From contig CANRDF010000012.1 of assembly GCA_947629255.1 (NCBI GenBank), positions 1 to 36,378 of the forward strand: a stretch of 36,378 bases of DNA, given 5' to 3'. The position numbers were made by a program, and so were the translations under genes. A model generated the notes under the pieces. It made no database searches. It was not told the DNA's origin and saw only the letters and a list, made by a program, of their open reading frames with translations. The DNA is from an uncultured Bacilli bacterium (GTDB taxonomy: Bacteria > Bacillota_I > Bacilli_A > RF39 > UBA660). This document shows positions 2,815-36,378 of this stretch, one piece after another. Each line of letters begins with the position of its first letter. Positions within the stretch are counted from its first letter, which is position 1.

Positions 2815-4470
2815 ATGAATTTAAAAACCGTACCAGTTGGAAAAGATGATTTTGCAAAATTAATTAATGAGGGTTGTTATTACGTAGATAAAACAATTGC
2901 CATTGAAGAATTATTAAGTAAAAATAGTGAAGTAGTTTTATATCCAAGACCAAGAAGATTTGGAAAAAGTCTGTTTATTTCCATGTTAGAAAACTTTTTT
3001 GATATTGATAAAAAGGAAGAAAATAAGCATTTATTTGATGGACTAGCCATTCAAAAAAGTGAATATTATAAAGAGTTTGGTGAATATCCTGTTATTACTT
3101 TAGATTTTAAAAATTTAAAACAAGATACTTATGAAAGTGTTTATAATCAGTTCGTTTTTAAAATACAAGAAGTCTATAAGCAAAAAGAATATATACTAGA
3201 AATTTTAGATGAAGATGAATCATTAAAGTTTAAAAAAATAAAAAGTGGAAATGCAAGTGAAGATGAATATAAAAATTCTATTTATCAGTTATCTAATTGG
3301 TTAGAAAGATATTATCATAAAAAGACTATTATATTAGTTGATGAATATGATATACCTATTCAACATGGATATTTAATGGGATTTTATGACAAGAGCGTAA
3401 GTCTTATAAGAAGTGTATTATCTAGTTCATTAAAGGGAAATGATAGTTTAAAAATGGGTATCATGACTGGAGTTTTAAGAGTCAGTAAAGAAAGTATTTT
3501 TAGTGACTTAAATAATCCTGTCATATATGATATGATGAGCCCTTCTTATAATGAAGCTTTTGGTTTTACTGAGAAAGAAACAAAAGAACTACTTGAATAT
3601 TATGGATTAGAGCTTACGAATGATGTAAAAAATATGTATGATGGATATAATTTTAGTGGTACTTCTATTTATAATCCTTGGAGTATTCTAAATTATATAG
3701 ACCAAAAAAAGTTGGAACCTTATTGGATGAATACATCAGGAAATGTACTCATTAAAAAAATGCTAGGTGAAATTAGTGAAAGTGATAAAATAGTGATTGA
3801 AAAGTTACTTCAGAAAAAAAGTATTTCTTTTGGATATGATAATCGAACCACATATCAAGATTTTGAAGAAACGACAGATTTAACAAAAGTATTGAATTTA
3901 CTTTTTGCATCTGGGTATTTGACTTATGATAAAAAAGTGATAGATGATTTGACAGGGAATACGTATCATTATTTTCAGATACCAAATGAAGAAGTTAGAT
4001 ATGATTTAACAAAAATGGTTCAGAGTATTACTTTTCAAAAAGAATTATTAGAAACAAATGAATATAAAGATTTTATTAGAAATTTATTATTAGGGGAAAA
4101 AGAAGAAGTAGAGAAGTATTTAAGTAAGTTATTACTAAGTATAAGCTTTTATGATACAAAGGAAAGTTTTTATCATGGATATATGATAGGGTTACTTGGA
4201 GGGTTCTTAAATTCTAGATTTATGATAAAATCGAATCGAGAAACAGGAAGTGGAAGAGCAGATGTATTCCTTGAAAAAAATGACCACAGTGTGGGATGTG
4301 TTTTTGAATTTAAGATAGCCGAGAGTGAAAGTGAGATGGAAAGTTTTGCTAACGCTGCGAAAGAACAAATGAAAGAGAAAGAATATTATAAAGAATTAGA
4401 GTTAAATAAAGTACAAAATATTCAAAAATATGCTATTGTATTCTGTGGCAAAAAGTGTATTGTTAGATAA
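2815..4470 (+). CDS. AAA-ATPase-like / PD-(D/E)XK nuclease-family protein
   Basis: 551 aa, matching the family with an N-terminal AAA-ATPase-like domain and a C-terminal PDDEXK nuclease domain that is common and multicopy in gut anaerobes. PRPRRFGKS (residues 44-52) is the Walker A-like loop and ILVDEYD (around 172) the Walker B. Near residues 482-503 GRADVFLE followed by CVFEFK supplies the D...ExK nuclease core. GAGGG precedes the ATG, and the gene has its own promoter and terminator. The cellular role of the family is not established; mobile-element or defence-like behaviour is often suggested. Here a duplication of host DNA flanks it (2672-2731 and 4559-4620), which points to acquisition by insertion. 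The ORF looks intact. Confidence 0.88.
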   Translation: MNLKTVPVGKDDFAKLINEGCYYVDKTIAIEELLSKNSEVVLYPRPRRFGKSLFISMLENFFDIDKKEENKHLFDGLAIQKSEYYKEFGEYPVITLDFKNLKQDTYESVYNQFVFKIQEVYKQKEYILEILDEDESLKFKKIKSGNASEDEYKNSIYQLSNWLERYYHKKTIILVDEYDIPIQHGYLMGFYDKSVSLIRSVLSSSLKGNDSLKMGIMTGVLRVSKESIFSDLNNPVIYDMMSPSYNEAFGFTEKETKELLEYYGLELTNDVKNMYDGYNFSGTSIYNPWSILNYIDQKKLEPYWMNTSGNVLIKKMLGEISESDKIVIEKLLQKKSISFGYDNRTTYQDFEETTDLTKVLNLLFASGYLTYDKKVIDDLTGNTYHYFQIPNEEVRYDLTKMVQSITFQKELLETNEYKDFIRNLLLGEKEEVEKYLSKLLLSISFYDTKESFYHGYMIGLLGGFLNSRFMIKSNRETGSGRADVFLEKNDHSVGCVFEFKIAESESEMESFANAAKEQMKEKEYYKELELNKVQNIQKYAIVFCGKKCIVR

Positions 4471-8681: not shown

Positions 8682-8710
8682 TTGACAAGAGAACAATAAT
8701 TTTATATACT
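8682..8710 (+). promoter_or_regulatory. strong promoter of the type IV secretion-like locus
   Basis: TTGACA, a 17-nt spacer and TATACT: near-consensus vegetative promoter. The predicted start is about 25 nt before the ATG at 8743. Confidence 0.8.
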
Positions 8711-8742: not shown

Positions 8743-9123
8743 ATGGGTGATATTGTACCAGGAAGTGAAACACTTGGCTTTTGCGCGAATACTGCAAATA
8801 TATGGCAAATTGTAGGAATTGCATTATTAATCTTTAAGATTGTTATTCCGATTTTGTTAATTATTTGGGGTATGTTAGATTTAGGAAGAGCAGTTATTGC
8901 TTCTAAAGATGATGAAGTTAAAAAATCAGTAAAATCTTTGGCAATGAGAGCTGTTTCAGCAGTCGTTATTTTCTTTATCCCAACTATTGTAAGTTTAGTT
9001 GTAGGATTAATATCTAACTTCAATGAGAGTGCAAAAGAAGATTGGGAAGTTTGTAGATCTTGTATTACAAATCCTAACGATCCAAGTGGTGATTGTGCTA
9101 TTTATGCTGAACAAGCATGGTAA
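8743..9123 (+). CDS. minimal VirB2/TrbC-like pilin (paralogue 1, likely major subunit)
   Basis: 126 aa, essentially the bare pilin module shared by six consecutive genes. A short N-terminus with Cys14 leads into helix 1 (about 20-46, FKIVIPILLIIWGMLDL), a basic loop SKDDEVKKSVKSLAMR and helix 2 (70-91, VVIFFIPTIVSLVVGLI). The tail carries CRSC (Cys104, Cys107) and Cys118. The loop is predicted cytoplasmic and both ends outside, as in VirB2 pilins. No classical signal peptide is present. AGATGGAGG places the start at 8743. It alone follows the strong promoter and is followed by a terminator, as expected for the most abundant subunit. The pilin function is inferred from fold and context. Confidence 0.8.
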   Translation: MGDIVPGSETLGFCANTANIWQIVGIALLIFKIVIPILLIIWGMLDLGRAVIASKDDEVKKSVKSLAMRAVSAVVIFFIPTIVSLVVGLISNFNESAKEDWEVCRSCITNPNDPSGDCAIYAEQAW

Positions 9124-9136
9124 AAAGTGTAAAGAT

Positions 9137-9159
9137 AAACTAGTTTTACTAGTTTTTTT
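9137..9159 (+). terminator. terminator or attenuator after pilin 1
   Basis: An 8-bp stem AAACTAGT/ACTAGTTT with a 3-nt loop, then a T run. Each arm contains ACTAGT. It would reduce read-through from the strong promoter into the next gene. Confidence 0.85.
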
Positions 9160-9169
9160 CTTTGTTTAT

Positions 9170-9178
9170 TGATATAAT
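9170..9178 (+). promoter_or_regulatory. extended -10 promoter of paralogue 2
   Basis: TGATATAAT, a perfect TGnTATAAT extended -10, lies 24 nt before the ATG at 9203 and just after the terminator. There is no clear -35 box. Confidence 0.55.
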
Positions 9179-9202
9179 CTTTTTAGAAACGGAGTGGGTC
9201 AC

Positions 9203-10417
9203 ATGAAGAAAGTAAAATATTTTCTTTTTAGTCTTTTCCTTTTTATTCCAATACTTGTCCATGCGGAAACAAGATGTATTTATGAAGTTTATCCGGAAAA
9301 GGATAATCCAAAAGTGGTTTGGAAGTTTGCAATTGAAACAGAAAATAATTCAAATTTGTTAACAAAGTTAAGTGATGAGGAATATTATGAAATAGCAAAA
9401 AATCAAACTATAGAATTGGAAAATGGAAATTGTCCAGAAGTTGTTCTTTATTATACAACTTGGATGGAGCGATTTGGTAATACTTTAAACCTTTTTGAAT
9501 CTGAAAAAAATTATTATTATCTTTATTCTGATTTTGGCACTTGTGCAAATCAACATAAGCAAGAGGGAAATACAGTAGAAGGAAGATGCTTTGATGCTGA
9601 TTTTATTGGGCAAGAAGATTCAGAAAGCCAATCTATTTCTAGTGCAACTGGAATTAATTTTCAAATGGAATTAAGTGCTTCTACATCTGATTCTTGTACA
9701 TATGTTGATAATTCTGGAATTTCTGATTTAAAGAATTTAAACTATAAGATAACCTATAGTAATGGAGATGTAAAAGCTAATTCTTGTTCTTTTGTTCATA
9801 ATAATTTCTTTCATATGAATCAGCCGTTTTGTGGAGTTACTTTTAAGTATAATAGTAATGAAGATTTTTTTGATGAAAATGGAGATTTTAGTTGCCCAGA
9901 ATATACTTATATCACTTATGAAATTGATAGCGCTCAAACAACTGAGTATAATACATATTATGCTATTCATGTGGTAGATACTGGAACTAGTGATGATGGC
10001 GATAGAAGTGTTTCTTCTACAAATAATGGCTCTTTTGATCCAAATAATTTATGTTCTAATGGTAGTTGCGATATTAGTTTAAGTGGAGTGTGCTATGTCC
10101 CAACTGTTGCAAGGACTTTACAATTTTTAGGCTTTTTATTGTTTATTATTAAAATTTTAGTACCTGCAATTATTATAATTATGGGTTTTATAAATTTATT
10201 TAAAATTATTATTGAAAGTAAACCTGAAGAAGCACCAAAATATGCAAAAAACATTATTACTAGAGTTATTATTGGAGTTATTATATTTTTAATTCCAACA
10301 TTAGTCAAATTTGTGTTTGATGTTGTAGATACAACTATTTATGGTGGAATGTCTAATCCTTTAGAAAATTGTACAAATTGTATTTTACATACAGAAGATT
10401 GCAAAATTTATAAATAA
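9203..10417 (+). CDS. secreted-domain VirB2/TrbC-like protein (paralogue 2)
   Basis: 404 aa. A signal peptide (KKVKYFLFSLFLFIPILVHA, residues 2-21) precedes an ectodomain of about 270 residues that I do not recognise. It is rich in Tyr, Asn and acidic residues with about ten Cys. The C-terminal 110 residues are the shared pilin module: pre-helix Cys in GVCYVP, helix 1 IIKILVPAIIIIMGF, a loop with SKPEEAPKYAK, helix 2 VIIFLIPTLVKFVF, then NCTNCIL and a final Cys. GGAG upstream supports ATG 9203 over the in-frame GTG at 9194. It is the most divergent pilin module of the five N-terminal members. A role as minor pilin or adhesin tip is an inference from context. Confidence 0.78.
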   Translation: MKKVKYFLFSLFLFIPILVHAETRCIYEVYPEKDNPKVVWKFAIETENNSNLLTKLSDEEYYEIAKNQTIELENGNCPEVVLYYTTWMERFGNTLNLFESEKNYYYLYSDFGTCANQHKQEGNTVEGRCFDADFIGQEDSESQSISSATGINFQMELSASTSDSCTYVDNSGISDLKNLNYKITYSNGDVKANSCSFVHNNFFHMNQPFCGVTFKYNSNEDFFDENGDFSCPEYTYITYEIDSAQTTEYNTYYAIHVVDTGTSDDGDRSVSSTNNGSFDPNNLCSNGSCDISLSGVCYVPTVARTLQFLGFLLFIIKILVPAIIIIMGFINLFKIIIESKPEEAPKYAKNIITRVIIGVIIFLIPTLVKFVFDVVDTTIYGGMSNPLENCTNCILHTEDCKIYK

Positions 10418-10440
10418 TTAGATGCAATTGCTAGTTTTTT
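10416..10440 (+). terminator. weak terminator after paralogue 2
   Basis: A short AATTAG/CTAGTT stem (one G-U pair) with a 9-nt loop and a run of six T. It shares the CTAG core of the stronger hairpins at 9137 and 13178. Confidence 0.4.
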
Positions 10441-10451
10441 AAAATAATTAT

Positions 10452-10460
10452 TGTTATAAT
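10452..10460 (+). promoter_or_regulatory. extended -10 promoter of paralogue 3
   Basis: TGTTATAAT, a perfect TGnTATAAT match, 25 nt before the ATG at 10486. Confidence 0.5.
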
Positions 10461-10485
10461 AAAATGGAAAAGAAGAGTTGATGTT

Positions 10486-11682
10486 ATGAAAAAAATAAAA
10501 CTAATACTTTTTAGTTTATTGATGATATTTATATTTCCTGTATTGAGTTTTGCTAGGACATGTACATATACGGATCAATACAGTGGAAATGGAATTCAAA
10601 ATACAGTGGTTTTGGAATTAACTGCTGAAAATAACGGACAAACAAGTTGCGAAGCAAGAATTACATTAAATAATTCTAAAACAATGAATAATAAAGAAGA
10701 TTGCCAAAATTGGATAGGCGAAGTACGAAATACTTATTATTTAAATGATGAATGTCCTTATTATGTTTTTATGACGAATGCGCCAGGAGTGCCATTTTCT
10801 GCCAGTGTTAAAGTAACTTATAATTATAATTCGGCTCAACAATGGAAGCAAGAAAACTCTAATGGATATATTCTTAGAAATGATGAATATGATCCTGATA
10901 AAATTCATGAAAACTTGAAAGAAAATTGTAATGATTATACTTCTCACGAGGAATGCTATTATGGTGTCACGGATAAGGAAGGAAATGCTTGTTTATGGAA
11001 TCCTACTACTAAAATTTGTGAACGAAGATATAAGTGTAGCGATTATACTTCTGAAAGTACCTGCCCTGAAAAAAATAGTTATGGAAGATGCCGATGGAAT
11101 TCTACGAATAATAAATGTGAAAAATATGATATCTTTTTCTGTGAAGATTATATTTCAGAAGATACATGTCCTAAAGTTGATGAGGAAGGTAATAACTGTA
11201 AATGGATTAGTGGACAAGGATGTGTTCAAATAAAGGTTAGTGGAGGAGAAGAAGATCCTAATGATCCAAGTGGAGGTCAAGAATATCCTGATTATCAAGT
11301 TGACCCCTCAACTAATATCAACAATATTTGTTCTAAATCTGAATTTAGAAAACCAGCGAGATTAATAGGAATTGTTGTAACTTTTTTAAAAATACTTGTT
11401 CCTATTTTCATTGTATTATTTGGAGCTGTTGATTTTTATAAAGCTATTACTTCTCAAAAAGATGATGGAGTAAAAAAAGCTGCAAAATCTATTGCTATTC
11501 GAGCTGTTGCTGGAATTGCGATATTCTTATTGCCTGGTTTAGTACAAATGGTATTAAATATGGTTAATGAGTGGAGTGAATATAAAAATAATTGGTGTTG
11601 TTGTACAGAATGTATTTTGAATTCAAATTGTGATGTAAACTCTTGTAGTAGTGAAAGTTGTCATATAGAAGGGACGAATTAA
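10486..11682 (+). CDS. Cys-repeat VirB2/TrbC-like protein (paralogue 3)
   Basis: 398 aa. A signal peptide (about residues 1-23) precedes an ectodomain that contains three tandem Cys-rich repeats at residues 148-178, 184-211 and 219-246. Each runs C-x-DY-x-S-x-E-x-x-C, then C-x-W and a fourth Cys, so each probably folds as a small disulfide knot. A Gly/Pro/Asp-rich linker (250-275) leads to the shared pilin module: NICSK, helix 1 LKILVPIFIVLFGAVDF, loop SQKDDGVKKAAKS, helix 2 IAIFLLPGLVQMVL, then CCCTECIL and more Cys. It starts a tight cluster of three genes; the next ATG is 1 nt after its stop. The repeats suggest a binding or structural surface role, which is inferred. Confidence 0.8.
   Translation: MKKIKLILFSLLMIFIFPVLSFARTCTYTDQYSGNGIQNTVVLELTAENNGQTSCEARITLNNSKTMNNKEDCQNWIGEVRNTYYLNDECPYYVFMTNAPGVPFSASVKVTYNYNSAQQWKQENSNGYILRNDEYDPDKIHENLKENCNDYTSHEECYYGVTDKEGNACLWNPTTKICERRYKCSDYTSESTCPEKNSYGRCRWNSTNNKCEKYDIFFCEDYISEDTCPKVDEEGNNCKWISGQGCVQIKVSGGEEDPNDPSGGQEYPDYQVDPSTNINNICSKSEFRKPARLIGIVVTFLKILVPIFIVLFGAVDFYKAITSQKDDGVKKAAKSIAIRAVAGIAIFLLPGLVQMVLNMVNEWSEYKNNWCCCTECILNSNCDVNSCSSESCHIEGTN
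10927..11223 (+). repeat. three tandem Cys-rich repeats within paralogue 3
   Basis: Repeat units begin at Cys148, Cys184 and Cys219 of the protein. Each has four Cys and a C-x-W motif, with conserved spacing of nine residues between the first two Cys. DNA identity between units is low, so the duplication is old or the unit is under protein-level selection. Confidence 0.85.
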
Positions 11683-11683
11683 A

Positions 11684-12538
11684 ATGAAAAAAATAGTAGT
11701 ATGGTTTAGTTTCTTATTCTTCATATTTATTTCGAGTGTGTTTGCTGGAAGTTATTATGAAACAGAAGATGGAAATTATATGTTATGTGAAGATTATGGA
11801 CCTGGATCTAGTGGAAATTGTTTTTCTATCAATCGTAATGCTCCTGGTTTTGGAATTAATACACGAGATAAGATTATAACGTATAATAATGAAGAATATT
11901 ATTATAATGAATATTTACAAGAAGAATATGATGAAACTTTAGTTGGTGTTAGTCGAATGTTTTATTATATGGAAAATGATCAATATGTATTATGTATAAA
12001 TAAAGATAATTGTAGAAAATATACATATGATCAATTAGATGAAAGGGGAGCGATCATTTATAATAATAATAGAATTGTTTTAAGCGGACAAGAAGGGCCT
12101 GGAGCAGAAGAAATTTATTATTATAATCCAAGTCAAAGTGTGACAGTTATTCCTAGTGGACCAGGGGAAAGTTCTGTTAGTGGGCAAACCACTATACCTC
12201 CTAAAGCTGATCCACAGCCAACTACAGATACATGTACAAGATTAAAAGCACCTTTACAATTTATTGGACAAATTGTAAGGATTGTAAAAATATTAATTCC
12301 TATTGCAATTATTGGTTTGGGAATGATTGATTTCTTTAATGCTATAATTGGTTCTAAAGATGATCAGTTAAAGAAGTCGGCACGTTCTTTGCTAATGAGA
12401 ACTATTGCTGGAGTGGTGATATTCTTTATTCCAACAATCATTAGCGTAGTATTTTCTTTGATTAGTGATTTTGGTAATATAAAAGGTGATTTCAATGCAT
12501 GTCAAAAATGTGTTTTTAGAGTAGAAAAATGTGAGTAG
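11684..12538 (+). CDS. secreted-domain VirB2/TrbC-like protein (paralogue 4)
   Basis: 284 aa. A signal peptide (KKIVVWFSFLFFIFISSVFA) precedes a Tyr/Asn/Glu-rich ectodomain of about 150 residues with many YY pairs. A Ser/Pro/Gly/Thr linker (about 150-180) leads to the pilin module: DTCTRLK, helix 1 VKILIPIAIIGLGMIDFF, loop SKDDQLKKSARS, helix 2 GVVIFFIPTIISVVFSLI, then ACQKCVF and a final Cys. The start is 1 nt after the stop of paralogue 3, with GAAGGGACG upstream, so the two are co-transcribed. The ectodomain has no recognised fold. Confidence 0.8.
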   Translation: MKKIVVWFSFLFFIFISSVFAGSYYETEDGNYMLCEDYGPGSSGNCFSINRNAPGFGINTRDKIITYNNEEYYYNEYLQEEYDETLVGVSRMFYYMENDQYVLCINKDNCRKYTYDQLDERGAIIYNNNRIVLSGQEGPGAEEIYYYNPSQSVTVIPSGPGESSVSGQTTIPPKADPQPTTDTCTRLKAPLQFIGQIVRIVKILIPIAIIGLGMIDFFNAIIGSKDDQLKKSARSLLMRTIAGVVIFFIPTIISVVFSLISDFGNIKGDFNACQKCVFRVEKCE

Positions 12539-12546
12539 GTGGACTA

Positions 12547-13179
12547 ATGATAAATAAAAAAATTTTAATATTTTTAATCTGTTTATTTCTCTTTCCTTGT
12601 ATGGTAAGTGCGGAAACTCCAGAAGGGACAGCGACGACATGTCCTGCAGGAACCATTGATACTACAAAATATCAATTTACGAGATATGTTACAGGGCAAA
12701 ATGCATCTACATATGTAGAGACTCATTATCCATCTCCTGATTATGTATCTACATGTTGTAATTTAAATAATGTGTATAGATGTGATGTTTATAAATTAAT
12801 AGAAACAAATAATAATGAGACGAATAATGGCTCAAATGGTGGGACTAATACATCAAATTCTATAAATTATTGCTCTGGTTTAAAATCAACATTTATAATT
12901 ATTGGGCATGTTGTTAATATTGCTAAAATTTTAATTCCTATTATTATTATTGGTTTAGGAATTATGGATTTCTTTAGAGCTGTGATAGGTTCTAAAGATG
13001 ATGAAATTAAAAAATCAACAAAATCTCTTATTATGAGAACCATAGCAGGTGTTGTTATATTCTTTATTCCAGTATTTATTGAACTTATTTTTAGCTGGGT
13101 AAGTGGATGGTCCGAAAATTACGAAAAACAATACCAAGAATGTTTCAAATGTATTTGGGATGTAAATAGTTGTAAATAA
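12547..13179 (+). CDS. secreted-domain VirB2/TrbC-like protein (paralogue 5)
   Basis: 210 aa. A signal peptide (about residues 1-22) precedes a short ectodomain with a CC pair and an Asn/Thr/Gly-rich linker (NNETNNGSNGGTNTSNS). The pilin module then runs YCSGLK, helix 1 AKILIPIIIIGLGIMDFF, loop SKDDEIKKSTKS, helix 2 GVVIFFIPVFIELIFSWV, ECFKCIW and a terminal Cys. Its module is closest to that of paralogue 4, so these two look like the most recent duplication. AGGTGG precedes the ATG, 8 nt after paralogue 4. A strong hairpin terminator overlaps its stop codon. Confidence 0.8.
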   Translation: MINKKILIFLICLFLFPCMVSAETPEGTATTCPAGTIDTTKYQFTRYVTGQNASTYVETHYPSPDYVSTCCNLNNVYRCDVYKLIETNNNETNNGSNGGTNTSNSINYCSGLKSTFIIIGHVVNIAKILIPIIIIGLGIMDFFRAVIGSKDDEIKKSTKSLIMRTIAGVVIFFIPVFIELIFSWVSGWSENYEKQYQECFKCIWDVNSCK

Positions 13180-13203
13180 AACTAGTGCTGACTAGTTTTT
13201 TTC
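13178..13203 (+). terminator. terminator after paralogue 5
   Basis: A 9-bp stem AAAACTAGT/ACTAGTTTT with a GCTG loop and a following T run. It overlaps the TAA stop. Its arms carry the same ACTAGT core as the hairpin at 9137. Confidence 0.88.
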
Positions 13204-13257
13204 TATTGTGGTATAGTTAAGTTTATTGTATAATAAAATTGTCAAGATATTGTTTTA

Positions 13258-13288
13258 ACTAGTAATCTAGTGATTAAAATGATATAAT
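13258..13288 (+). promoter_or_regulatory. extended -10 promoter with adjacent inverted repeat, before paralogue 6
   Basis: TGATATAAT (13280-13288) is a perfect TGnTATAAT box 27 nt before the ATG at 13316. Just upstream, ACTAG-TAAT-CTAGT (13258-13271) is an inverted repeat that lies where a -35 box or operator would be. No T run follows, so it is more likely a protein-binding site than a terminator. Confidence 0.45.
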
Positions 13289-13315
13289 AATTTGGTAAAT
13301 GAGTGTGAAATATCT

Positions 13316-14428
13316 ATGAAAAAAAATTTTTTCCTATTTTTAATTTTAATTCTAATAATGAGTTGTATAAATACACATGCAGCAGATATGTGTAAACCTG
13401 GTGCTTTAGAAGAAATAAATTATCTTCAAGGTGATGATACATATGCAACTATGACGTATTGTACTAAAACACTTTTTAAGAGTGCGGGTTGTATGCCAAG
13501 TTCTTATGCAATGATAGTCGCTAATTTATCAGATCGAAGTGTCACTCCAAAAGAGATTAGAGACTATATATGCGCTGGAGGACTTAAAAGCGTAGTAAGA
13601 ACTGCTGAAGATAATGGAAACTGTGCATCTTGTGCACTTAAAACAAACGAATATCCTGCAGCTAAGGAAATGGCGGAACATTTTAATGTTACATTTTCTC
13701 AATTATCAATCTCGACAAGTGATGCTACTGATCAAAAAGTTAATGAATTAAAAGATATTTTAAATAGTGGTAAAATGATTATAGCCTCTATTGTATGTCC
13801 AAATCCTGGTCAAGGTAATGATGTAAAAGGTTGCAAATTTACAAGTAGTTCCTCTGGACATTATATAGTATTATCAAACGTAGATAGTAATGGACAAATT
13901 GTAGTTTTAAATCCTGGAAGTCAAGCAACAGCTAAAAATGCTTGGAGCGATCAAGTCATTAAGGACGAAGTGATCGCGGTTCTTAATCAAGGTATGTGGG
14001 AAGCAACTGGGACAGCTACTACTTGTAATACAGGAACAGGTTCCCAAAGTGGTGGATCCAGTGGTGGAATGATGAATGATCCACATTCTAATATTTTTCC
14101 AAATATTGAAGGAACTAAATGTGAAAATGGAAATGAATCAACAATCTTTGTTGATTGCAATGGAGAATATACTGTCTTGAAAGAATTTTTAGATGATTTA
14201 TTTCTTCTTATTAAGATTGCTGCACCTGTTTTAGTTATTGTTTTATCTACTATTGATTATGTAAAGGCTTTGGCAAATTCCAATGCTGATGAGCTAAAGA
14301 AAACAAATAAAAGAACAATTATGCGATTAATTATTGGTTTGTTGATATTTTTGTTACCATTTTTATTAGATTTACTATTCCAATTATTTGGATTATATGG
14401 CTTAAATACGTCTGGAATTGGAAAATAA
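13316..14428 (+). CDS. C39-like cysteine peptidase fused to a VirB2/TrbC-like module (paralogue 6)
   Basis: 370 aa. A signal peptide (about residues 1-23) precedes a domain resembling the C39-like papain-fold family. The nucleophile is Cys59 in SAGCMPSSYAM, with His182 in SSGHYIVLSNV and Asn199 in VVLNPGS as the likely rest of the active site. A Gly/Ser-rich linker (about 240-260) leads to the two-helix module (LLIKIAAPVLVIVLSTIDY, loop SNADELKKTNKRT, then LLIFLLPFLLDLLF). The module keeps the pre-helix Cys but lacks the C-terminal CxxC of the others. In Gram-positive secretion systems a wall-lytic or processing enzyme is expected; this could fill that role, but its substrate is unknown. An in-frame TTG at 13292 is a less likely start. 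Confidence 0.78.
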   Translation: MKKNFFLFLILILIMSCINTHAADMCKPGALEEINYLQGDDTYATMTYCTKTLFKSAGCMPSSYAMIVANLSDRSVTPKEIRDYICAGGLKSVVRTAEDNGNCASCALKTNEYPAAKEMAEHFNVTFSQLSISTSDATDQKVNELKDILNSGKMIIASIVCPNPGQGNDVKGCKFTSSSSGHYIVLSNVDSNGQIVVLNPGSQATAKNAWSDQVIKDEVIAVLNQGMWEATGTATTCNTGTGSQSGGSSGGMMNDPHSNIFPNIEGTKCENGNESTIFVDCNGEYTVLKEFLDDLFLLIKIAAPVLVIVLSTIDYVKALANSNADELKKTNKRTIMRLIIGLLIFLLPFLLDLLFQLFGLYGLNTSGIGK

Positions 14429-14441
14429 AGGAGGCGAGTAG

Positions 14442-16583
14442 ATGAAACTGTTATTAAATTCTTCTATGGGCATGAACATTGTTTGGGACTTCGTAAACAC
14501 AGGAATTCAATCCGTCTTTTTATGGATTGATTCTGTAGTTTATTGGTTTGCATCACAATGCTATCAATTATTTATTAAATTAGCTGGTACAAAGATTTTT
14601 GAAGATAGCTTTTTTGCTAACTTTGCTAATCGAATTTATGTTATATTAGGTGTTTTCATGTTGTTTTATCTTGCCTATGCTTTACTTAATGCGATAGTAG
14701 ATCCTGAAAAATTAACAAAAGGTGATAAAGGCGTAGGAAAGATTGCTACTAATCTTATTGTGTCTTTGGTTATTTTAGGATTTTTACCTACAATATTTAG
14801 TTATGCTTATCGTTTGCAAAATTATATTTTAGCATCAAATGCGATAGGCTCATTAATTTTAGGAACACCTGTACAAGATGTTGATAGTGAAGATAATAGT
14901 GTAAATGATAATGAGATGTTAGCTTATGGAGATGTTTTGTCTTTCACTATATTAAATACGTTTTTAAATCCCGATAATATAAATTTTAATGTATCAGATG
15001 ATTACACTTGGTATAATTTTAAAAATGATGTTTTGGAATATGGGGATTATAGTGCAATGCCGAATATGGGCAAAGCTGTATCTACTGGTGTCAATGCTTT
15101 AAGTGGAGAGTATGCTGGTACTACGATGCGTATTGATTATAAAGTTGTAATTTCTACTGCAGCCGGTGTTTTTCTTATTTATGTTATGTTATCTTTTACT
15201 TTAGACTTGGGGGTACGAGTTGTTAAATTAGCTTTTTATCAATTAATTGCTCCAATACCAGTGATTATGAGAATTTTGCCAAGTAAGAAAAATACTTTTG
15301 ATAAATGGTTAAAACAAACGTTATCTGTATATTTTGAAGTTTTTGTTCGAGTAGCTATCATGTATATTGCTATTTATTTCATTAATACTATTGTCAATAA
15401 TAATACTTTAAAACAATTTTGGGAAGGTGGTTTACAAGGAAAACTTGCATTAGTTATTATTATCTTGGGTATTTTTGCTTTTGCTAAACAAGCACCAAAA
15501 ATGATTAGTGATTTATTAGGTATTGATACAGGAGGACTTAAACTTGGAATTAAAGATAAGTTAAAAGCGAGTGGATTCCTAGGAAATGCTATAAATAATG
15601 GAATTGGACGTGTCGTTGGTGCAACAACAGGTGCTGTTGGTGCTGGAATTTCTGGATTTGCAAATGGTGCAGGACCAGCTGGTTTCCTTTATGGTGCTGC
15701 GAATGGATGGAAAAATAAAGGGATGCAATTTAGTAAGCAACGTCAAGATATGTATTCTAAATTGACGGGTGACTATAAAGGAAAAGTTGGCTTGTTTGGT
15801 GGACAAAGTTTTGGTACCAAGATATTTAATCGTATGGGTGGTTTAGCATCAGAAATAGCTATAGATCAAAGAACAGCTGAAATTAAAGCTTATGAGGATA
15901 AGAGGATAAAGGGTGAAAGAGAAGCATATAATGAACAAATTAATGCATTAAAAAATCAATATTCACAAGAAAAATCTGCTTATGATGCAGAAACTCAAAA
16001 TCTTTTAAGTAATTTAACAAAAAAATATAATGATAATGAATCAAGGTTTAATGCAAATAATAGTAGTCAACTTGCTTCATTGACGAAAAAACGTGATCAA
16101 GAAGAAGCTGAATTTAATAGAAATAGAGATTTGAAAATAGCTAATTTAAGAAAAGCACAGGCTTCTACTGGTAGATCTAATCGACAAGAATATTACAAGT
16201 TAGAAAATGAAATTTTAGATTTACAAAAATCTCAATATGAAAATACTTCTTTAGATAATCAAATTAACGGATTAAGAAATGCTAGTTATGCTGCTACTTC
16301 TGAAGGTCAAGAATTGCAACGTCAAATTGAGGGAGCAAGAAATAGAGTATACGTAAATGATGAATTACAACGTCAAATAGATAATTCTATATTTGATGAG
16401 GATGCGATTAGATCACGAATTAAGGAAGAGAAAGAATTAATTAATGATCTTGAATCTAAAAAGTATCATGCTAATGTAAAAATAGCTAATAGATTAGGTG
16501 AAATGAAAGCAACTAAGCAACAACAAGAGGCATTTGATAAAGTATTGAAAGACTATGTAGCTAAAAGTAACAATAATAAATAG
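14442..16583 (+). CDS. VirB6/TrbL-like channel protein with coiled-coil tail
   Basis: 713 aa. VirB6/TrbL proteins form the inner-membrane channel of type IV secretion systems. Residues 1-365 hold about six or seven helices, including DLGVRVVKLAFYQLIAPIPV and the conserved end KQAPKMISDLLG. Residues 380-425 are a Gly/Ala-rich stretch (GAVGAGISGFANGAGPAG). From about 478 to 705 the protein is hydrophilic, rich in Gln, Lys and Glu, and predicted coiled coil; it is likely cytoplasmic and may contact the ATPase. AGGAGG lies before the ATG, 13 nt after paralogue 6. The next gene starts 15 nt later, so 13316-19253 is probably one operon. Confidence 0.85.
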   Translation: MKLLLNSSMGMNIVWDFVNTGIQSVFLWIDSVVYWFASQCYQLFIKLAGTKIFEDSFFANFANRIYVILGVFMLFYLAYALLNAIVDPEKLTKGDKGVGKIATNLIVSLVILGFLPTIFSYAYRLQNYILASNAIGSLILGTPVQDVDSEDNSVNDNEMLAYGDVLSFTILNTFLNPDNINFNVSDDYTWYNFKNDVLEYGDYSAMPNMGKAVSTGVNALSGEYAGTTMRIDYKVVISTAAGVFLIYVMLSFTLDLGVRVVKLAFYQLIAPIPVIMRILPSKKNTFDKWLKQTLSVYFEVFVRVAIMYIAIYFINTIVNNNTLKQFWEGGLQGKLALVIIILGIFAFAKQAPKMISDLLGIDTGGLKLGIKDKLKASGFLGNAINNGIGRVVGATTGAVGAGISGFANGAGPAGFLYGAANGWKNKGMQFSKQRQDMYSKLTGDYKGKVGLFGGQSFGTKIFNRMGGLASEIAIDQRTAEIKAYEDKRIKGEREAYNEQINALKNQYSQEKSAYDAETQNLLSNLTKKYNDNESRFNANNSSQLASLTKKRDQEEAEFNRNRDLKIANLRKAQASTGRSNRQEYYKLENEILDLQKSQYENTSLDNQINGLRNASYAATSEGQELQRQIEGARNRVYVNDELQRQIDNSIFDEDAIRSRIKEEKELINDLESKKYHANVKIANRLGEMKATKQQQEAFDKVLKDYVAKSNNNK

Positions 16584-16598
16584 AAAGAGGGTTAAAGA

Positions 16599-16919
16599 AT
16601 GGAAGGAAATGGACAGACTTATTTGATACCAGCAAATACAAAGAAATCTAAATTGATATTAGGTTTCTTTACACCCATTGATTTAGGAATTTTTGGTGTT
16701 GGAGTACTTATTACAGTCACTATGTTATTCTTATTTCAAGGAATGTCTTTTCAAACGGCACTTATAGTTTTAATGCCTGCTTTAATTTCGGGATTTTTAG
16801 TTATCCCTGTACCAAATTACCATAATGTGTTACAATTATTAACGAATATAATCACATTCCTGATGAATAGAAAGAGGTATTATTGGAAAGGCTGGTGTAT
16901 TAAAGATGGCGAAAAATAA
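16599..16919 (+). CDS. PrgI/VirB3-like membrane protein
   Basis: 106 aa. Two hydrophobic helices (about 25-45 and 50-72) lie between a short N-terminus with TYLIPANTKKSKLILGFFTP and a C-terminal MNRKRYYWKGWC, the typical arrangement of PrgI proteins encoded just before VirB4 in Gram-positive conjugation clusters. The family is thought to link the ATPase to the membrane channel. AGAGGG precedes the ATG. Its 3' end overlaps the next gene by 14 nt, which implies coupled translation. Confidence 0.85.
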   Translation: MEGNGQTYLIPANTKKSKLILGFFTPIDLGIFGVGVLITVTMLFLFQGMSFQTALIVLMPALISGFLVIPVPNYHNVLQLLTNIITFLMNRKRYYWKGWCIKDGEK

Positions 16920-17472
16920 AGAAGAGTTATCAAGTAAATGGAGTGAAGATTGGGTACCACTTAAAAATATTATGAATGGTATGATTCAACTTGAAAATGG
17001 AGAATATGTAACAGGAATAAAAATTTCACCAAGAAATATTTTTATTCTAGATGCTGCGACAAGAGATAATGTGATTTATCAGTTACAAAATTTCTATAAT
17101 GCCATTAATTTTGAATTTTGGTTAGTTGTTGCTGATCGACCTGTAGATATTAATGTGTATTTATCACAGTTACAAATTCTTTATAATGAGGCGAGAAATG
17201 CTGTGACAAGAAAGTTAATTGCACAAGATATTAATAAAGCAAACATGTTTATGAGTGCTGAATACAACGTTGTTGATACAGAATATTATATTTTGTTTAA
17301 AGAAAAGAAAATGGATGTGATTCAAAAAAGATTACATACCATGATTAGTAATTTAGCCAATTGTGGATTAAATAGTCAACAAACAAGTAATAATGACTTA
17401 AGAGTTATATTAGATAATTTCTTTAATGGTGGTGCGGCCACGACTTTTAGTGGGATGGTGAGTCCAAGATGA
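16906..17472 (+). CDS. TraC-like N-terminal part of a VirB4 ATPase (separate polypeptide)
   Basis: 188 aa, soluble. It matches the N-terminal region that elsewhere is either fused to VirB4/TraC ATPases or made as a separate TraC-like protein: WVPLKNIMNGMIQLENG opens the domain and YYILFKEKKMD closes the mixed alpha/beta part. There is no nucleotide-binding motif. The stop overlaps the start of the ATPase gene as ATGA, so the two are translationally coupled and likely act as one unit. It could instead be a broken VirB4, but the clean overlap and intact frames argue for a genuine two-gene arrangement. Confidence 0.8.
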   Translation: MAKNKEELSSKWSEDWVPLKNIMNGMIQLENGEYVTGIKISPRNIFILDAATRDNVIYQLQNFYNAINFEFWLVVADRPVDINVYLSQLQILYNEARNAVTRKLIAQDINKANMFMSAEYNVVDTEYYILFKEKKMDVIQKRLHTMISNLANCGLNSQQTSNNDLRVILDNFFNGGAATTFSGMVSPR

Positions 17473-19253
17473 ATATAAAAGCTCAAATAGCTCCAAAGGG
17501 AGTTGAATTTAAAGCAACTGAATTTATTATGAGTGGTAAATATTGTACTATTTTAACTATTGTGAGTTACCCTAAGTTTATTCAACAAGGGTATTTAGCA
17601 AATTTAACGAATTTATCAGGTATTAAAGTTGTTGCTAAACATATTCCGATTGAACTTACAACTTTACAAAGAATGATTAATAAAGAGATTGCTGATTTAA
17701 AATTACGATATCAAACTGAAAGAGATAAAACGATTCAAGAAAGAATACGTCAAGATTACGAATCTTTAGAGCAATTTATTTCGATGTTAGTCGCAACTCA
17801 AGCAAGAATATTTGATTTCCAATTACATATTATTATTTCTGCTGATACCAAAGATGAAATGGAAGGAAGAAAGATGCAAGTTCGAAACTATTTGGATGCT
17901 CTAGGTATGAGAGGAATTCCTTTGATGTTTGAACAAGAAAAAGTTTTAAAATCGATGATTCCAATTTTTCCTAAACAAGATATTGAAGATAGAGTTGGCG
18001 CTCCAATTCCATCTGTTACCATTGCGGCGATGTATCCATTTATCTTTGATAGTATTAAAGATCCAGGCAATAGTACTTTATTAGGAGTTGATTTCTCTGG
18101 TGGAGTCATTCTATTTAATCAGTTCTTATATCAAATTAAGAAAGAAAATAATCGAAATAATGCGAATATGATTATACTTGGTACTTCTGGTTCTGGTAAA
18201 TCAACGGTTGCTAAACTTCTTCTTCGAAGTCATATTCGAAATGAATATAAACTTGTTTGTATTGATCCAGAAGGTGAGCTTGAAGAAATGGCACGTTCGA
18301 TGGGTGGAGATTTCTTAGACCTTGGAAAAGGTGGGGAATTTGGAATGGTAAACCCTCTAGAAGTTGTTATTGATGCTGATGAAGAAGAAATTAATCAAGG
18401 ACTTGGATATACCGTTTTAACAAGAACGATTCAACAATTAAAAGCATTTATGAAATATTATAATCCTGATATTGAAGAAGATGTTTTAACTATGTTTAGT
18501 GAAGTCGTACAAGATACCTATAAACGTTATAAAATTGATTTTGATACGGATTATACAAAATTTACAAGTGCTGATTATCCAACATTTGATGATGTATATG
18601 CAACGATTAAAGGTCGATTATTATCCATGACTGAAAAAACACATGAAAAAGATGTTATGGAAAGATTAGAACTTAAGATTCGCCCATTAGTCAAAGAATT
18701 ACGTTATTATTTTACGGGACATACAACCTTAAATATTCAAAGTGATTTTATTGTATTTAATATTAAAGAACTTATGAATGCAGATGAAAATGTTAGAAAT
18801 GCTTTATTCTTTAATATCTTAAAATATGCTTGGGGCTTATGCTTAGATCCATCTGTAAACACTGTTATGTGTGTAGATGAAGCGCATGTTTTATTATCAA
18901 CAAGAAATGAACTTGGAGCAGAATTCTTAGCTCAAATTCAACGTCGTAGTAGAAAATACAATACAGGAACTATTATTATTACTCAACAGCCAACAGACTT
19001 TGCGGCTCCAAATGTGATTGTTCATGGAAAAGCTATTTTTGATAATGCTGCTTATTATTTAGTCATGAATTTGAAGAAACAAGCAGTAGATGATTTAGGA
19101 CAGTTAATTGATTTAAATGATAGTGAGAAAGATAGTATTAAATATTATAATCAAGGAGAAGCTCTGTTTGTTTGTGGAAATCGAAGGATGAGAATTAATG
19201 TGATTGCTACTCAAGAAGAATTAGATTCCTTTGGTTCTGGTGGAGGATTATAA
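17469..19253 (+). CDS. VirB4/TraE-family secretion ATPase
   Basis: 594 aa. VirB4 ATPases power assembly and transport in every type IV secretion system. Walker A is GTSGSGKST (residues 238-246) and Walker B is VMCVDEAHVLLS (around 465). LAQIQRRSRKYNTG and IIITQQPTD follow, as in VirB4/TraC/HerA-like ATPases. The first 200 residues are the alpha/beta N-domain; the most N-terminal piece is in the preceding gene. GGTGAG lies upstream within the previous gene. It is the last gene of the locus and is followed by a strong terminator. No VirD4 coupling ATPase or relaxase follows. Confidence 0.92.
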   Translation: MNIKAQIAPKGVEFKATEFIMSGKYCTILTIVSYPKFIQQGYLANLTNLSGIKVVAKHIPIELTTLQRMINKEIADLKLRYQTERDKTIQERIRQDYESLEQFISMLVATQARIFDFQLHIIISADTKDEMEGRKMQVRNYLDALGMRGIPLMFEQEKVLKSMIPIFPKQDIEDRVGAPIPSVTIAAMYPFIFDSIKDPGNSTLLGVDFSGGVILFNQFLYQIKKENNRNNANMIILGTSGSGKSTVAKLLLRSHIRNEYKLVCIDPEGELEEMARSMGGDFLDLGKGGEFGMVNPLEVVIDADEEEINQGLGYTVLTRTIQQLKAFMKYYNPDIEEDVLTMFSEVVQDTYKRYKIDFDTDYTKFTSADYPTFDDVYATIKGRLLSMTEKTHEKDVMERLELKIRPLVKELRYYFTGHTTLNIQSDFIVFNIKELMNADENVRNALFFNILKYAWGLCLDPSVNTVMCVDEAHVLLSTRNELGAEFLAQIQRRSRKYNTGTIIITQQPTDFAAPNVIVHGKAIFDNAAYYLVMNLKKQAVDDLGQLIDLNDSEKDSIKYYNQGEALFVCGNRRMRINVIATQEELDSFGSGGGL

Positions 19254-19322: not shown

Positions 19323-20372
19323 TTATGGAGTTTCAGTGGCTGGGCTTAATTTTTTAACAGTTAAGAAGGCATTGGATACGTCAATTGCATCTGTTCCACT
19401 TGATTCAGCAGCAAGGTCTATGGTTTGACCAGCAGTTAAAGGTAAAATTGTTGTTCCTGTAAATGTTCCCCCTGTGGTAGTTGTTAGATCTTTTGTGGTA
19501 TTTGTTGCTGTGATTTCCGTAGTCCCATCGGTTCTTGCATAGACCTCGATTGTTGCGTCTGTAGTTACAGGCGCGACATCTAAACTATATGTTACTTCAT
19601 AATTCCCATCTTCTGGAACTGTAAGAGCATTTGCGGTACCTGTGACTCCAACATTTGTCATATCATTGGCAAGAGCGACTTGAACTGGGGTTGCAGCTGT
19701 TGTTGTTGCCACAGATTGAGTTTCATTTTGATAAAGACCACCGTAGGCTGCTAGTCCTCCACCTGCAGGCCCTGTAGGTCCAGTAGCACCTTGAGGAATT
19801 GTGAAGGCAACTTCATACGTTCCATCTGTTCCTGTGATATCTACTTCAGGAGGATTATCTGGTCCAGTTGCTGTTACTGCTCCTGCTGTAATGATTGGAG
19901 CCGGTCCTGTAGGCCCTGTTGGACCCGTTGGCCCTGTGGGACCTGTAGGTCCTTCTGCACCAGGAGTTCCAGCAATACCTTGTAATCCTTGAGGACCGAT
20001 TGGTCCTGTAGCTCCAGTTGGTCCCGTAGGTCCCGTTGGACCAGTAGCTCCTATGGTACCAGCAGTTCCAGGTAACCCTTGAGGTCCTGTTGGACCTGTC
20101 GCACCCGTTGGACCAGTCGCTCCTGCAGGAATGACAAAATTTAAAATAGCATTTTGACTTGTTCCCGCATTTATGACAGAAGGTTCACTTCCAGGTAATC
20201 CTTGGGTTGTCGTACCAATGGTAATGGTTGCAGGTCCTTGAGGCCCTGTAGGCCCTGTAGGCCCTGTAGGTCCTACGATGTTGCGACCAGAACAACAACA
20301 TCCTTGTCTAAATGAGTTTTGTTGATAATTTTTGACATAATTATATGCTTTTTGATATTCACAACTATTCAT
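19323..20372 (-). CDS. collagen-like spore-surface (BclA-like) protein
   Basis: 349 aa. Gly-X-Y tracts, mostly GPT, GAT and GPQ, make up much of residues 34-210 and should form a collagen-like triple helix. The N-terminal 33 residues are Tyr/Asn/Gln-rich and contain a CCC triplet. Two non-collagen inserts share a pattern (each ends in [12 protein letters not shown] or [12 protein letters not shown]). The last 130 residues (from [10 protein letters not shown]) are Thr-rich and predicted beta-sandwich, like the C-terminal trimerisation domain of BclA exosporium proteins. No signal peptide is present, as expected for a protein made in the mother cell. AGAAGGGAG precedes the ATG. A SigK-like promoter upstream supports spore-coat or exosporium expression, which is inferred. 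Confidence 0.85.
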
Positions 20373-24213: not shown

Positions 24214-25083
24214 ATGGCAAAAAAAGATGCTTATTTAACTGCTAAAATTGATCGAATTTTTAAAACCGTTTTTGTAAATCCTGATAATACGAAATTTATG
24301 AATGCGCGTGCTTAGGAAGTTTTAGAACAAGAAGTGAAAGTCTTAAAGTTTTATCCAACGGAACTTCCTGTTCGTAATAAAAAAGAAAGAGTGAAAGTTT
24401 TAGATGTCTTACTTAAAACAAAAGATGGAAAATATACTCATGTGGAAGTAAATACATCTTTTGGTGAAGCCACAAGAGTTCGTAACCTTTGTTTCTTTAA
24501 TTCTTATTATTCTGAAAAAGTAAAAAGAGGAAATAAATATGATACCAAGAGCGAATTCGTACATCTAGACTTCAATTTTATTAGAGAAGAAAAAGAAGAG
24601 CCAAAGAAAGTTTACCAACTTTTAAATCCTAAAACATTAAAACCATATGTCGAAAATTATAAAATTATAACCGTCAATCTTGCAACAATCAAAAAAGAGT
24701 GTTATCATAAGAACATACAAGGAGAGAAAGAGAATATCCATTTAGTGATGTTAAGTGCAAATGAAAAAGAATTAATGGAATTATCAAAACAAGATGAATT
24801 AGTAAAGGAGTTTGATGAGAAAATGTTTATATTAAATAGTGATAATACTTTTACAAGAACAATATCTGAAGAAGAAGACCAAAAACTACTTATAAATGCA
24901 ATGATTGAAGAAGCTCAAGAAGAGGCAGCTGAGAAAGCCACTAAGAAAGCAACAAATAACCGTAATATTGAAATAGCAAAAAGGATGCTACAAAAAACGG
25001 ATGATATATCTTATATATCAGAAATAACAGATTTACCTAAAGGAAAAATCAGAAAGTTACAAAAGAAATTAAATCAAAATTAA
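24214..25083 (+). pseudogene. Rpn/PD-(D/E)XK transposase-family protein, interrupted by a TAG
   Basis: Reading from ATG 24214, 33 codons (including KIDRIFKTVFVNPDNTKFMN) run into a TAG at 24313-24315. The same frame then continues without a break to 25083, so the intact protein would have been about 289 aa. The first part is the conserved start of the Rpn/PDDEXK nuclease family, and VLDVLLKTKDGKYTHVEVN after the stop is the nuclease core, with an Asp and a Glu. The usual ExQ is ExN here. The C-terminus has the family's helical tail ending in KGKIRKLQKK. Re-initiation at 24334 would give 249 aa lacking the first helix. Rpn proteins are recombination-promoting nucleases, so this is a decayed copy. 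Confidence 0.8.
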
Positions 25084-34919: not shown

Positions 34920-36378
34920 ATGGAGAGAAGAAAAACAAGTTTATTCATTATAGGATTGTGTGCATTTATATTAAGTGTAATAGGAGTGACTTATGCGTTT
35001 TGGATGTTAAGGCTATCTCAAACAGATGAAAATAATATTGCATCAAGTTGTTTTGAAGTAACATTAACGAATGAAGGAGCAGCCATTCATTTAGATAAAG
35101 CATATCCTATTCTAGATAGTGATGGAGAACAATTAGAACCATATACATTTACAATTACAAATACATGTGATGCCTATGCAGGATATCAAATCAATTTAGA
35201 ATCATTAAGTAAGAGTGGTGATACACCTATTCCTGTTAGTGATAGATTAAGTGCTCAATATTTAAAAGTAAAAATCAATGAAGTTGATACAGAAGGAATC
35301 ATAAGTATTTTAGGAGCAAATGATGTTGTTACTGAAACATTAAATGATGCTTATGAATCCCATAAATTAATGACAGGATATTTAGGACCAGCAGAAACAG
35401 AAAATGCTTCAAAAGATTTTGAATTCAGATTATGGTTAGATGGAGCATTAACCATGGAAGATACAGATGCTATGAATAAAACATTTGTAAGTAAAATTAC
35501 AGTGACAGCAAGTTATTTAACAGAAGAGAAAGTTCCACCAACCATAGATTTAGAATTAGCAGTATGTGAAAACACAATTACAGCAACAGGAAGTGGAACA
35601 CCAAGTGGAAATAAAAGCATTGAAAAATATGAATTTAAGTTAGATGATGACGCAGAATGGAAAGATAATAATGGAGAACAAACAAAAGAATTTACAGGAT
35701 TAGAGAAAGGACAACACACGATAAAACTTAGAGTAACAGATAATAAAGGAGCAACAAGTGAATTCAGTAAACAAATAGAAGTGAACTATGAAGAACCAAC
35801 AACAGCCAACTTGGGAGGAAAAACAATAGAATTAACACGTAGTGGAAATGGATTATATAGAGTGAGTCATTGTGGGGTAACAGGAACAGTAGATGATATA
35901 GGATTTAGCAAAGAAGAATATCGATTTGCAGGGTCAAGTCCAGATAACTATGTATGGTTTAACTGTGAGGAAGGATATCCAAAATCAGATGAAGATAATA
36001 CTTCCCATTGCGAGAAATGGCGAATTATAGGTTTAGTAAATGTTATTACTAGTGATAATCAAGTAGAACAAAGATTAAAAATAATAAGAGCTGATAGTAT
36101 AGGAAATTATAGTTGGGATTATAAAACAAGTGGAAAAGGAAGTTCAACAAGTAGTATTGGAAGTAACGATTGGACAGATAGTCAACTCATGGAAATGTTA
36201 AATGATGGATATTATAATTCTTCTTCCAGTGTATCTTGTTATCAAGGAAGTAGTTCTCCAAGTACATGTGATTTTACAAGTAACGGATTGAAAGAAACAG
36301 TAAGAGATATGATAGATAAAGAAATTATATGGAATCTTGGTGGATGGAGTACAAATCAGGAAGTAACTTCAGATATGT
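34920..36378 (+). CDS. large cell-surface protein, 5' part (runs off the window)
   Basis: 486 codons are open to the right edge. The N-terminus MERRKTSLFIIGLCAFILSV with TYAFW resembles SipW-dependent or TasA/CalY-type signal peptides. The next part (about 35-200) is a CalY-like beta domain. About 205-295 is an Ig/PKD-like domain (KYEFKLDDDAEW, LRVTDNKGATSEFS). Then comes a module around GFSKEEYRFAGSSPDNYVWF and EKWRIIGLV, which I know from other Firmicute surface proteins but cannot name. The ribosome-binding site is weak (AAAGTAGG). The promoter upstream has a G10 spacer, so expression is probably variable. The C-terminus and any anchor are outside the window. Confidence 0.8.
   Translation, partial: MERRKTSLFIIGLCAFILSVIGVTYAFWMLRLSQTDENNIASSCFEVTLTNEGAAIHLDKAYPILDSDGEQLEPYTFTITNTCDAYAGYQINLESLSKSGDTPIPVSDRLSAQYLKVKINEVDTEGIISILGANDVVTETLNDAYESHKLMTGYLGPAETENASKDFEFRLWLDGALTMEDTDAMNKTFVSKITVTASYLTEEKVPPTIDLELAVCENTITATGSGTPSGNKSIEKYEFKLDDDAEWKDNNGEQTKEFTGLEKGQHTIKLRVTDNKGATSEFSKQIEVNYEEPTTANLGGKTIELTRSGNGLYRVSHCGVTGTVDDIGFSKEEYRFAGSSPDNYVWFNCEEGYPKSDEDNTSHCEKWRIIGLVNVITSDNQVEQRLKIIRADSIGNYSWDYKTSGKGSSTSSIGSNDWTDSQLMEMLNDGYYNSSSSVSCYQGSSSPSTCDFTSNGLKETVRDMIDKEIIWNLGGWSTNQEVTSDM

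Follow-up and report, generated by a model that had tools for sequence, protein, structure and literature searches.

Why would a bacterial chromosome keep a type IV secretion system (T4SS) that has a row of pilin-like genes and no relaxase? Such a locus lies at 8743-19253 of the 36,378-nucleotide stretch analysed here (the window), which is the whole of contig C12 (CANRDF010000012.1) of a 1.59 Mb draft genome (GCA_947629255.1) of an uncultured bacterium of the order RF39. We lean, by a modest degree, towards the answer that it encodes part of a contact-dependent transfer machine, a relaxase-less T4SS of the MPF_FATA kind that is fixed in the chromosome and would be built and used together with a Tad pilus in RF39. 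A sequence-only reading of the window had described ten co-directional genes with six pilin-like paralogues, and open reading frames (ORFs) together with a hidden Markov model (HMM) of the shared module, which finds six copies, bear this out. The genes and their promoter are as follows.

8682-8710, + strand: predicted sigma-A-type promoter upstream of pil1, TTGACA-N17-TATACT, 11 of 12 consensus bases
8743-9123, + strand: pil1, VirB2-like pilin of 126 aa, module without an N-terminal domain; PF18895 E = 0.0011
9203-10417, + strand: pil2, secreted N-terminal domain of ~290 aa and VirB2-like module; PF18895 E = 4.5e-5, module HMM match
10486-11682, + strand: pil3, Cys-rich secreted N-terminal domain of ~280 aa (24 Cys) and VirB2-like module; module E = 1.6e-30
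11684-12538, + strand: pil4, secreted N-terminal domain of ~180 aa and VirB2-like module; module E = 1.7e-34
12547-13179, + strand: pil5, secreted N-terminal domain of ~105 aa and VirB2-like module; PF18895 E = 0.001, module E = 1.6e-39
13316-14428, + strand: pil6, secreted C39-like peptidase domain (Peptidase_C39_2 E = 9.5e-10, residues 55-199) and VirB2-like module; module E = 8.9e-17
14442-16583, + strand: VirB6-like polytopic membrane protein with a long C-terminal cytoplasmic-type tail; TrbL E = 3.9e-4, NCBIfam MMCAP2_0566 conjugal transfer family E = 3.4e-9, below cut-off
16599-16919, + strand: VirB3/PrgI-like protein; PrgI and TcpE E ~1e-3, NF045975 positions 2-96
16906-17472, + strand: TrsD-like protein of 188 aa, VirB4 N-terminal domain as its own gene; NF045975 positions 95-276, E = 1.4e-15
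17469-19253, + strand: VirB4 ATPase (TrsE-like); P-loop_TraG E = 1.1e-12, AAA_10 E = 8.5e-12, NF045975 positions 294-891, E = 3.5e-104

The pilin array and the secretion core

The six pilin-like proteins share a C-terminal module of ~105-120 aa in which a conserved loop, KxDExKK...R, joins two hydrophobic helices and the tail bears the motif C-x2-C...C. Searched with an HMM of this module (alignment A4, 26 module-bearing pilin proteins), the whole genome gave six matches, every one inside the window, and because their E-values run from 1.7e-48 to 8.9e-17 the six-member family is far beyond chance. As the sequence-only reading had proposed, five of the six, pil2 to pil6, carry different secreted N-terminal domains, seen as a hydrophobic signal-like segment followed by an extracytoplasmic domain of ~105-290 aa. 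AlphaFold2 models the module as a hairpin, which in pil1 consists of long helices at residues 18-53 and 56-91 (predicted local distance difference test score, pLDDT, 78), and the positively charged loop between the helices and the Cys-rich tail would fit a VirB2 topology with both ends outside. Among 121 pilin proteins, 57 matched PF18895 at E ≤ 0.01 (best 6e-7), the window's own members scoring below the Pfam cut-off. Matches of the pilins to eukaryotic 7TM/Frizzled families in Pfam were rejected as hydrophobicity artefacts, and profile searches of the pilin and VirB6 alignments against PDB sequences returned nothing meaningful.

Pilins of this kind were found in all 37 genomes of the genus, with 1-12 module copies per genome (counts that are limited by draft contigs), and a pil1 orthologue is conserved across the order. 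The N-terminal domains that were scanned include Peptidase_C39_2 (6), Amidase_3 (5) and NlpC/P60 (4), which we take from their family matches to be peptidoglycan hydrolases; in pil6 the Cys and His of the expected C39 motifs are present on reading the sequence. Measured against the window, identity across the genus is ~90% for VirB4 and TrsD, 64% for a neighbouring peptidase and 50-71% for the pilin modules. Identity of the N-terminal domains, calculated for pil2 to pil5, is 24-28% for pil2, pil3 and pil5 and 39% for pil4, with a shuffled control at 14%, which shows that the pilin N-terminal domains diverge fast.

Downstream of the pilins, the VirB6-, PrgI/VirB3- and VirB4-like identities given by the sequence-only reading are supported by Pfam and NCBIfam, and the 188-aa gene adds a TrsD-like domain to them. 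NF045975, a model of the VirB3-VirB4 fusion of mycoplasma integrative and conjugative elements (ICEs), is tiled collinearly and end to end by the PrgI-like protein, the 188-aa protein and VirB4, the last being an ORF of ~600 aa order-wide. The 188-aa protein (16906-17472) has no informative Pfam match; the AlphaFold2 model of it (pLDDT 78) has residues ~11-330 of R388 TrwK/VirB4 as its top match by Foldseek and VIA (Z 9.7). From the tiling and this predicted-structure match to the N-terminal region of TrwK, we assign the gene as TrsD-like, a VirB4 N-terminal domain that is encoded separately. Alignment of TrsD with one ICE VirB4 by hhalign gave no significant match, and a profile of the TrsD alignment found nothing meaningful among PDB sequences. 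TrsD is a separate gene preceding VirB4 in 105 of 105 surveyed loci, and PrgI, TrsD and VirB4 are adjacent in nearly all relatives, though some genera are split otherwise. Separate TrsD and VirB4 genes are also found in a Halobacillus plasmid and in other Bacilli elements, and the split is therefore not unique to RF39. Together with the VirB6 match, sub-cut-off as it is, the tiling places VirB4, VirB3 and VirB6 in one cluster, as in Gram-positive T4SSs of the MPF_FATA type.

The cassette from the pilins to VirB4 has a vegetative-type promoter of its own. Most pil1 orthologues in the order are preceded, at a distance of 31-68 nt, by a site of the form TTGACN-N16-18-TA---T; in a control for the promoter match, a score of ≥10 was reached in 65 of 2000 shuffles. 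Sporulation is predicted for the order (PMC10868615), and the sequence-only reading had thought of a surface filament or protein export in a spore-former. A filament or export role is plausible for the locus; nothing here points to sporulation, as the pil1 promoter is of the vegetative sigma-A type.

Inheritance of the locus and its linkage to a Tad pilus

We found VirB4 in 35 of 37 genomes of the genus, which includes Candidatus Ventrenecus species, mostly at 87-98% identity and at the lowest 71% in the most divergent members. Across the order, whose other members include Candidatus Coprovivens (placed in RF39 by the paper that named it), it is present in 172 of 193 genomes and 72 of 83 genera; matches in the wider class are much weaker (~30% identity) and resemble ordinary conjugative VirB4s. 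In a tree of 51 VirB4s each of the five genera with at least two sequences forms one clade, with the minimum possible changes. The genomic site also recurs across the genus, with an M18 aminopeptidase on the 5′ side and collagen-like and YlbJ genes on the 3′ side. This breadth of occurrence, the genus-coherent tree and the recurring site indicate that the locus is vertically inherited, fixed in the chromosome and not a mobile element, so that its description as a chromosomal locus outside any integrative element stands. An ICE or other integrated element was considered and rejected, given the locus without a relaxase, the conserved site, the vertical tree and the order-wide occurrence.

No relaxase, VirD4 or integrase was seen among the ORFs examined in the window, and BLAST found no ICE-type relaxase in 105 loci. 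An order-wide scan for one relaxase family, MOBP (PF03432), gave matches above the cut-off in 34 of the 193 genomes, and of the places listed for them none lies close to VirB4. The relaxase of this genome belongs to a complete and separate ICE-like element on contig C14 (L034 1615-17448, C14:8000-27000), with MOBP relaxase, MobC, VirD4, a 780-aa VirB4, PrgI and a hydrolase.

Several genes around the locus were recorded in passing. The collagen-like gene that adjoins VirB4 (19323-20372, − strand), kept at the site in the genus, codes for a spore surface protein of the exosporium type, marked by a BclA C-terminal domain. Several genus members have, directly 3′ of VirB4, a gene of ~820 aa without a Pfam match that is absent from the window (L036 17471-19942 and equivalents in L037-L041) and is a possible substrate or accessory. 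The only mobile-element-like genes noticed in the window are at 2815-4470 (AAA-ATPase_like/PDDEXK_9) and 24334-25083 (PDDEXK_2 family, transposase-type), and at 34920-36377 (+ strand) the contig end cuts off a gene, left open-ended, whose product has a signal peptide and PKD-like domains.

The claim that VirD4 is missing holds within the 36 kb and fails for the genome as a whole. There are two VirD4 genes elsewhere, one in the C14 ICE and one on contig C4, the latter passing the NF045973 cut-off (282 vs 250 bits) and lying behind a Tad pilus operon, a membrane-anchored hydrolase and a lipoprotein gene. The hydrolase has Phage_lysozyme and Peptidase_M23 domains, is VirB1-like, and in other genera lies directly 3′ of VirB4. 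The gene order in those genera is CpaB-CpaF-TadB-TadC-Flp-TadE-TadZ, pilins, VirB6-PrgI-TrsD-VirB4, lysozyme/M23 hydrolase, VirD4, rhodanese, RmuC. Since they keep all of these genes in one operon-like block, the C4 VirD4, the hydrolase and the CpaF ATPase (VirB11 superfamily) belong with the cassette in the window. On C4 itself TadZ and the hydrolase gene are only 60 bp apart at the place where relatives hold the cassette, which shows that the pilin-VirB4 cassette was ancestrally linked to Tad, hydrolase and VirD4 and relocated as a unit in this genus.

The counts across the order follow the same arrangement. VirD4 occurs in 177 of 193 genomes and is absent together with VirB4 from 13 (Fisher p = 1.8e-12); of the 111 genomes that have both on one contig, 109 place it downstream of VirB4 in the same orientation, at a median of +5.25 kb. 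CpaF is present in 159 of 193 genomes, in association with VirB4 (p = 1.4e-6), and of the 69 genomes in which no more than 25 kb separate it from VirB4, 68 have it upstream and on the same strand. Altogether, CpaF, VirB4 and VirD4 are linked in 54 genomes.

Within the Tad locus the Pfam matches are to RcpC/CpaB and T2SSE; TadB, TadC, Flp, TadE and TadZ were assigned by position, size and topology, and of these TadB, TadE and TadZ have no Pfam match. Upstream of CpaB the C4 block encodes a giant secreted protein of 1338 aa and a minor-pilin-like protein of 139 aa (L226 5555-9990; C4:8000-19000), and giants of ~940-1180 aa stand at the same place in other genera, which makes these proteins candidate tip components of the Tad pilus. 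The giants were found to share no domain with the pilin N-terminal domains in RF39 except C39-type regions. Two further observations concern this block in other genomes: a gene between those for the hydrolase and VirD4 in genus g40 (L111 3640-5058, − strand) encodes what looks like a fusion of a SpoIID-like domain and a C39-like peptidase, and an ORF reported as 24,789 aa around the CpaF gene of another genome (G169, contig C2, ~46622-47749) is probably an artefact or a masked stretch.

A proposed contact-dependent machine and its alternatives

If these parts work as one machine, the Tad pilus, with its CpaF motor, TadB/C platform, Flp and TadE pilins and secreted giant tip candidates, would grip a neighbouring cell, probably a bacterial one, and pull it in. 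The lysozyme/M23 hydrolase and the hydrolase domains on some of the VirB2-like pilins could then make a local opening in the wall. Several pilin paralogues that differ in their extracellular domains would be put together by VirB4 (with its TrsD domain), VirB3 and VirB6 into a filament or channel of the VirB2 type, and VirD4 would feed a substrate, most likely protein effectors, through the channel into the partner cell. A narrower version, which we put forward tentatively and hold to be somewhat doubtful, is that RF39 bacteria live in contact with other bacteria as epibionts, parasites or predators, tapping or injecting them through a Tad and VirB2-pilus T4SS with interchangeable wall-cutting and recognition domains. 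If true, this would be the counterpart, in another phylum, of the epibiosis apparatus of Patescibacteria.

Several results weigh against a single contact-dependent machine. No effector and no partner cell were identified, and Foldseek returned only generic helical hairpins from the PDB for the pil1 model, with no informative match. VirB8 is not proven: candidates with an N-terminal transmembrane segment and an NTF2-like look were picked out by eye in some genera, and there is none in the window. Tad and T4SS are also separable. Two genomes (G131 and G144) keep Tad without an RF39-type VirB4, some have VirB4 and VirD4 without a CpaF match, and the single-contig genome G145 has Tad, VirB4 and VirD4 far apart at three places.

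The same genes could instead serve uptake, with Tad capturing DNA and a T4SS-derived channel importing DNA or nucleotides from neighbours, like Helicobacter ComB or archaeal Ced, and so feeding an organism without de novo nucleotide synthesis. A role in nucleotide acquisition has been proposed for the T4SS of Saccharibacteria (PMC11665869), this genome encodes ComEC, and one report ties Tad pili to DNA uptake in Liberibacter (PMC8513845). However, VirD4 is conserved with the system here, whereas ComB is without VirD4 (PMC12857230), competence is separable from the essential T4SS in S. epibionticum, and hydrolase-bearing pilins suggest wall penetration rather than capture of free DNA; we regard uptake as unlikely. 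The presence of VirD4 bears in a similar way on the idea that the T4SS part moves no substrate and only builds a pilus of several subunits, variable in its antigenic or adhesive properties. This would suit the divergent pilin array with its fast-evolving N-terminal domains, and Bartonella Trw, with multiple VirB2 and VirB5 copies and a proposed role of this kind, is a described analogue; Trw is without VirD4, however, whereas here VirD4 is conserved and lost with VirB4, and a filament alone seems to us distinctly improbable.

DNA might also still be transferred by cryptic conjugation, with a relaxase encoded elsewhere or of an unrecognised family. The homology to T4SSs of conjugative plasmids and ICEs speaks for this, as does the zrk4 plasmid, which has the same T4SS and Tad layout, VirD4 and a protein with a relaxase-like HLH motif. 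The unlinked and infrequent MOBP relaxases, the assignment of this genome's own relaxase to the C14 ICE, and vertical inheritance at a fixed site all speak against it, and we think conjugation very unlikely. A contact-dependent transfer machine is thus the reading that we carry into the comparison below. It would make the acquisition of building blocks by RF39, which is described as genome-reduced and without de novo nucleic acid synthesis (PMC13155120), a testable matter, and the pilin arrays across the genus offer a set of natural variants from which to work out the targets of the variable domains.

Comparison with known systems

The relatives by family model are the T4SSs of mycoplasma ICEs (Mbov_0397/VirB4_plasma, MMCAP2_0566) and of pGO1/Halobacillus-type plasmids, which provide the best models for the window's VirB4, TrsD and VirB6. 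The Halobacillus plasmid NZ_CP121672 has a like order, VirB2-PrgI-TrsD-VirB4-lysozyme/M23. Unlike the RF39 locus, these systems are mobile or plasmid-borne, the VirB4 of mycoplasma ICEs is a fusion, and neither a Tad operon nor a pilin array was seen with them. The Mycoplasmatota zrk4 plasmid (CP074574) shares more: a pilin with a ~690-aa N-terminal domain and a PF18895 module, TrbL, PrgI, a gene in the TrsD position and VirB4, followed by CpaB-TadZ-CpaF-TadB-TadC-Flp, with VirD4 elsewhere on the plasmid. It differs in being plasmid-borne, in its putative relaxase, in a VirB4 that is only ~28% identical, and in the reversed order of the modules, and it is likely related to the ancestral element. 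CpaF- and TadC-like genes also lie beside VirB4 at a locus (L217) from another family of the class. Together with the ingredients of the zrk4 plasmid, this suggests that a plasmid-borne T4SS and Tad module was domesticated, with loss of the relaxase, in the RF39 ancestor.

Elsewhere, too, a Tad pilus can be linked to a second translocation machine or encoded together with one. In Myxococcus the Kil Tad pilus, with variable tips, works with a complex like a type III secretion system (T3SS*) to kill prey (PMC12075869); there the base is T3SS-like and the organism is a diderm. The only report of Tad and T4SS genes together in Gram-positives that our literature search found was a Cutibacterium acnes tad plasmid with a VirB4-like ATPase (PMC5696575), which is mobile and whose link to a T4SS was not reported as an operon. 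For RF39 itself the search turned up no account of a T4SS.

Of the systems described so far, the T4SS of Patescibacteria comes closest, as judged by gene content and layout (Southlakia epibionticum SEML1_0006-0019; PMC12102498, PMC10633639, PMC12857230). The sequence-only reading knew of no described system with this set of paralogues; these same reports overturn that, since Patescibacteria have VirB2 arrays of 2-11 genes, and of six in S. epibionticum. Both systems are chromosomal, fixed across a higher taxon, mostly relaxase-less and of MPF_FATA affinity, and both have a separate TrsD beside VirB4, PrgI/VirB3, VirB6, divergent VirB2-like arrays, and a lysozyme and peptidase just 3′ of virB4, in genome-reduced hosts that also have a pilus of the type IV family. 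S. epibionticum cannot grow on its host bacteria without its type IV pilus, nor without the chromosomal relaxase-less T4SS that has the six VirB2-like pilins (PMC12857230, PMC10633639).

In contrast, the RF39 system is in Bacillota, has VirD4 normally in the cluster where in Patescibacteria it is mostly far away, and is linked to a Tad pilus where Patescibacteria have a separate type IV pilus. RF39 pilins also carry large N-terminal domains, including predicted peptidoglycan hydrolases, a feature looked for in the RF39 pilins. According to a 2025 review, Patescibacteria are the one exception to the absence of VirB2 pilins from Gram-positive T4SSs (PMC12857230); the RF39 locus is a second case, in a Bacillota order that is often found in the guts of vertebrates and is so far uncultured. 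The pilin array itself thus has a precedent in Patescibacteria. What appears new is that the system is fixed throughout an order of Bacillota, that it was ancestrally fused with Tad in a block suggestive of a single contact-dependent machine, that VirD4 is conserved within the cluster, and that there are pilins bearing hydrolase domains.

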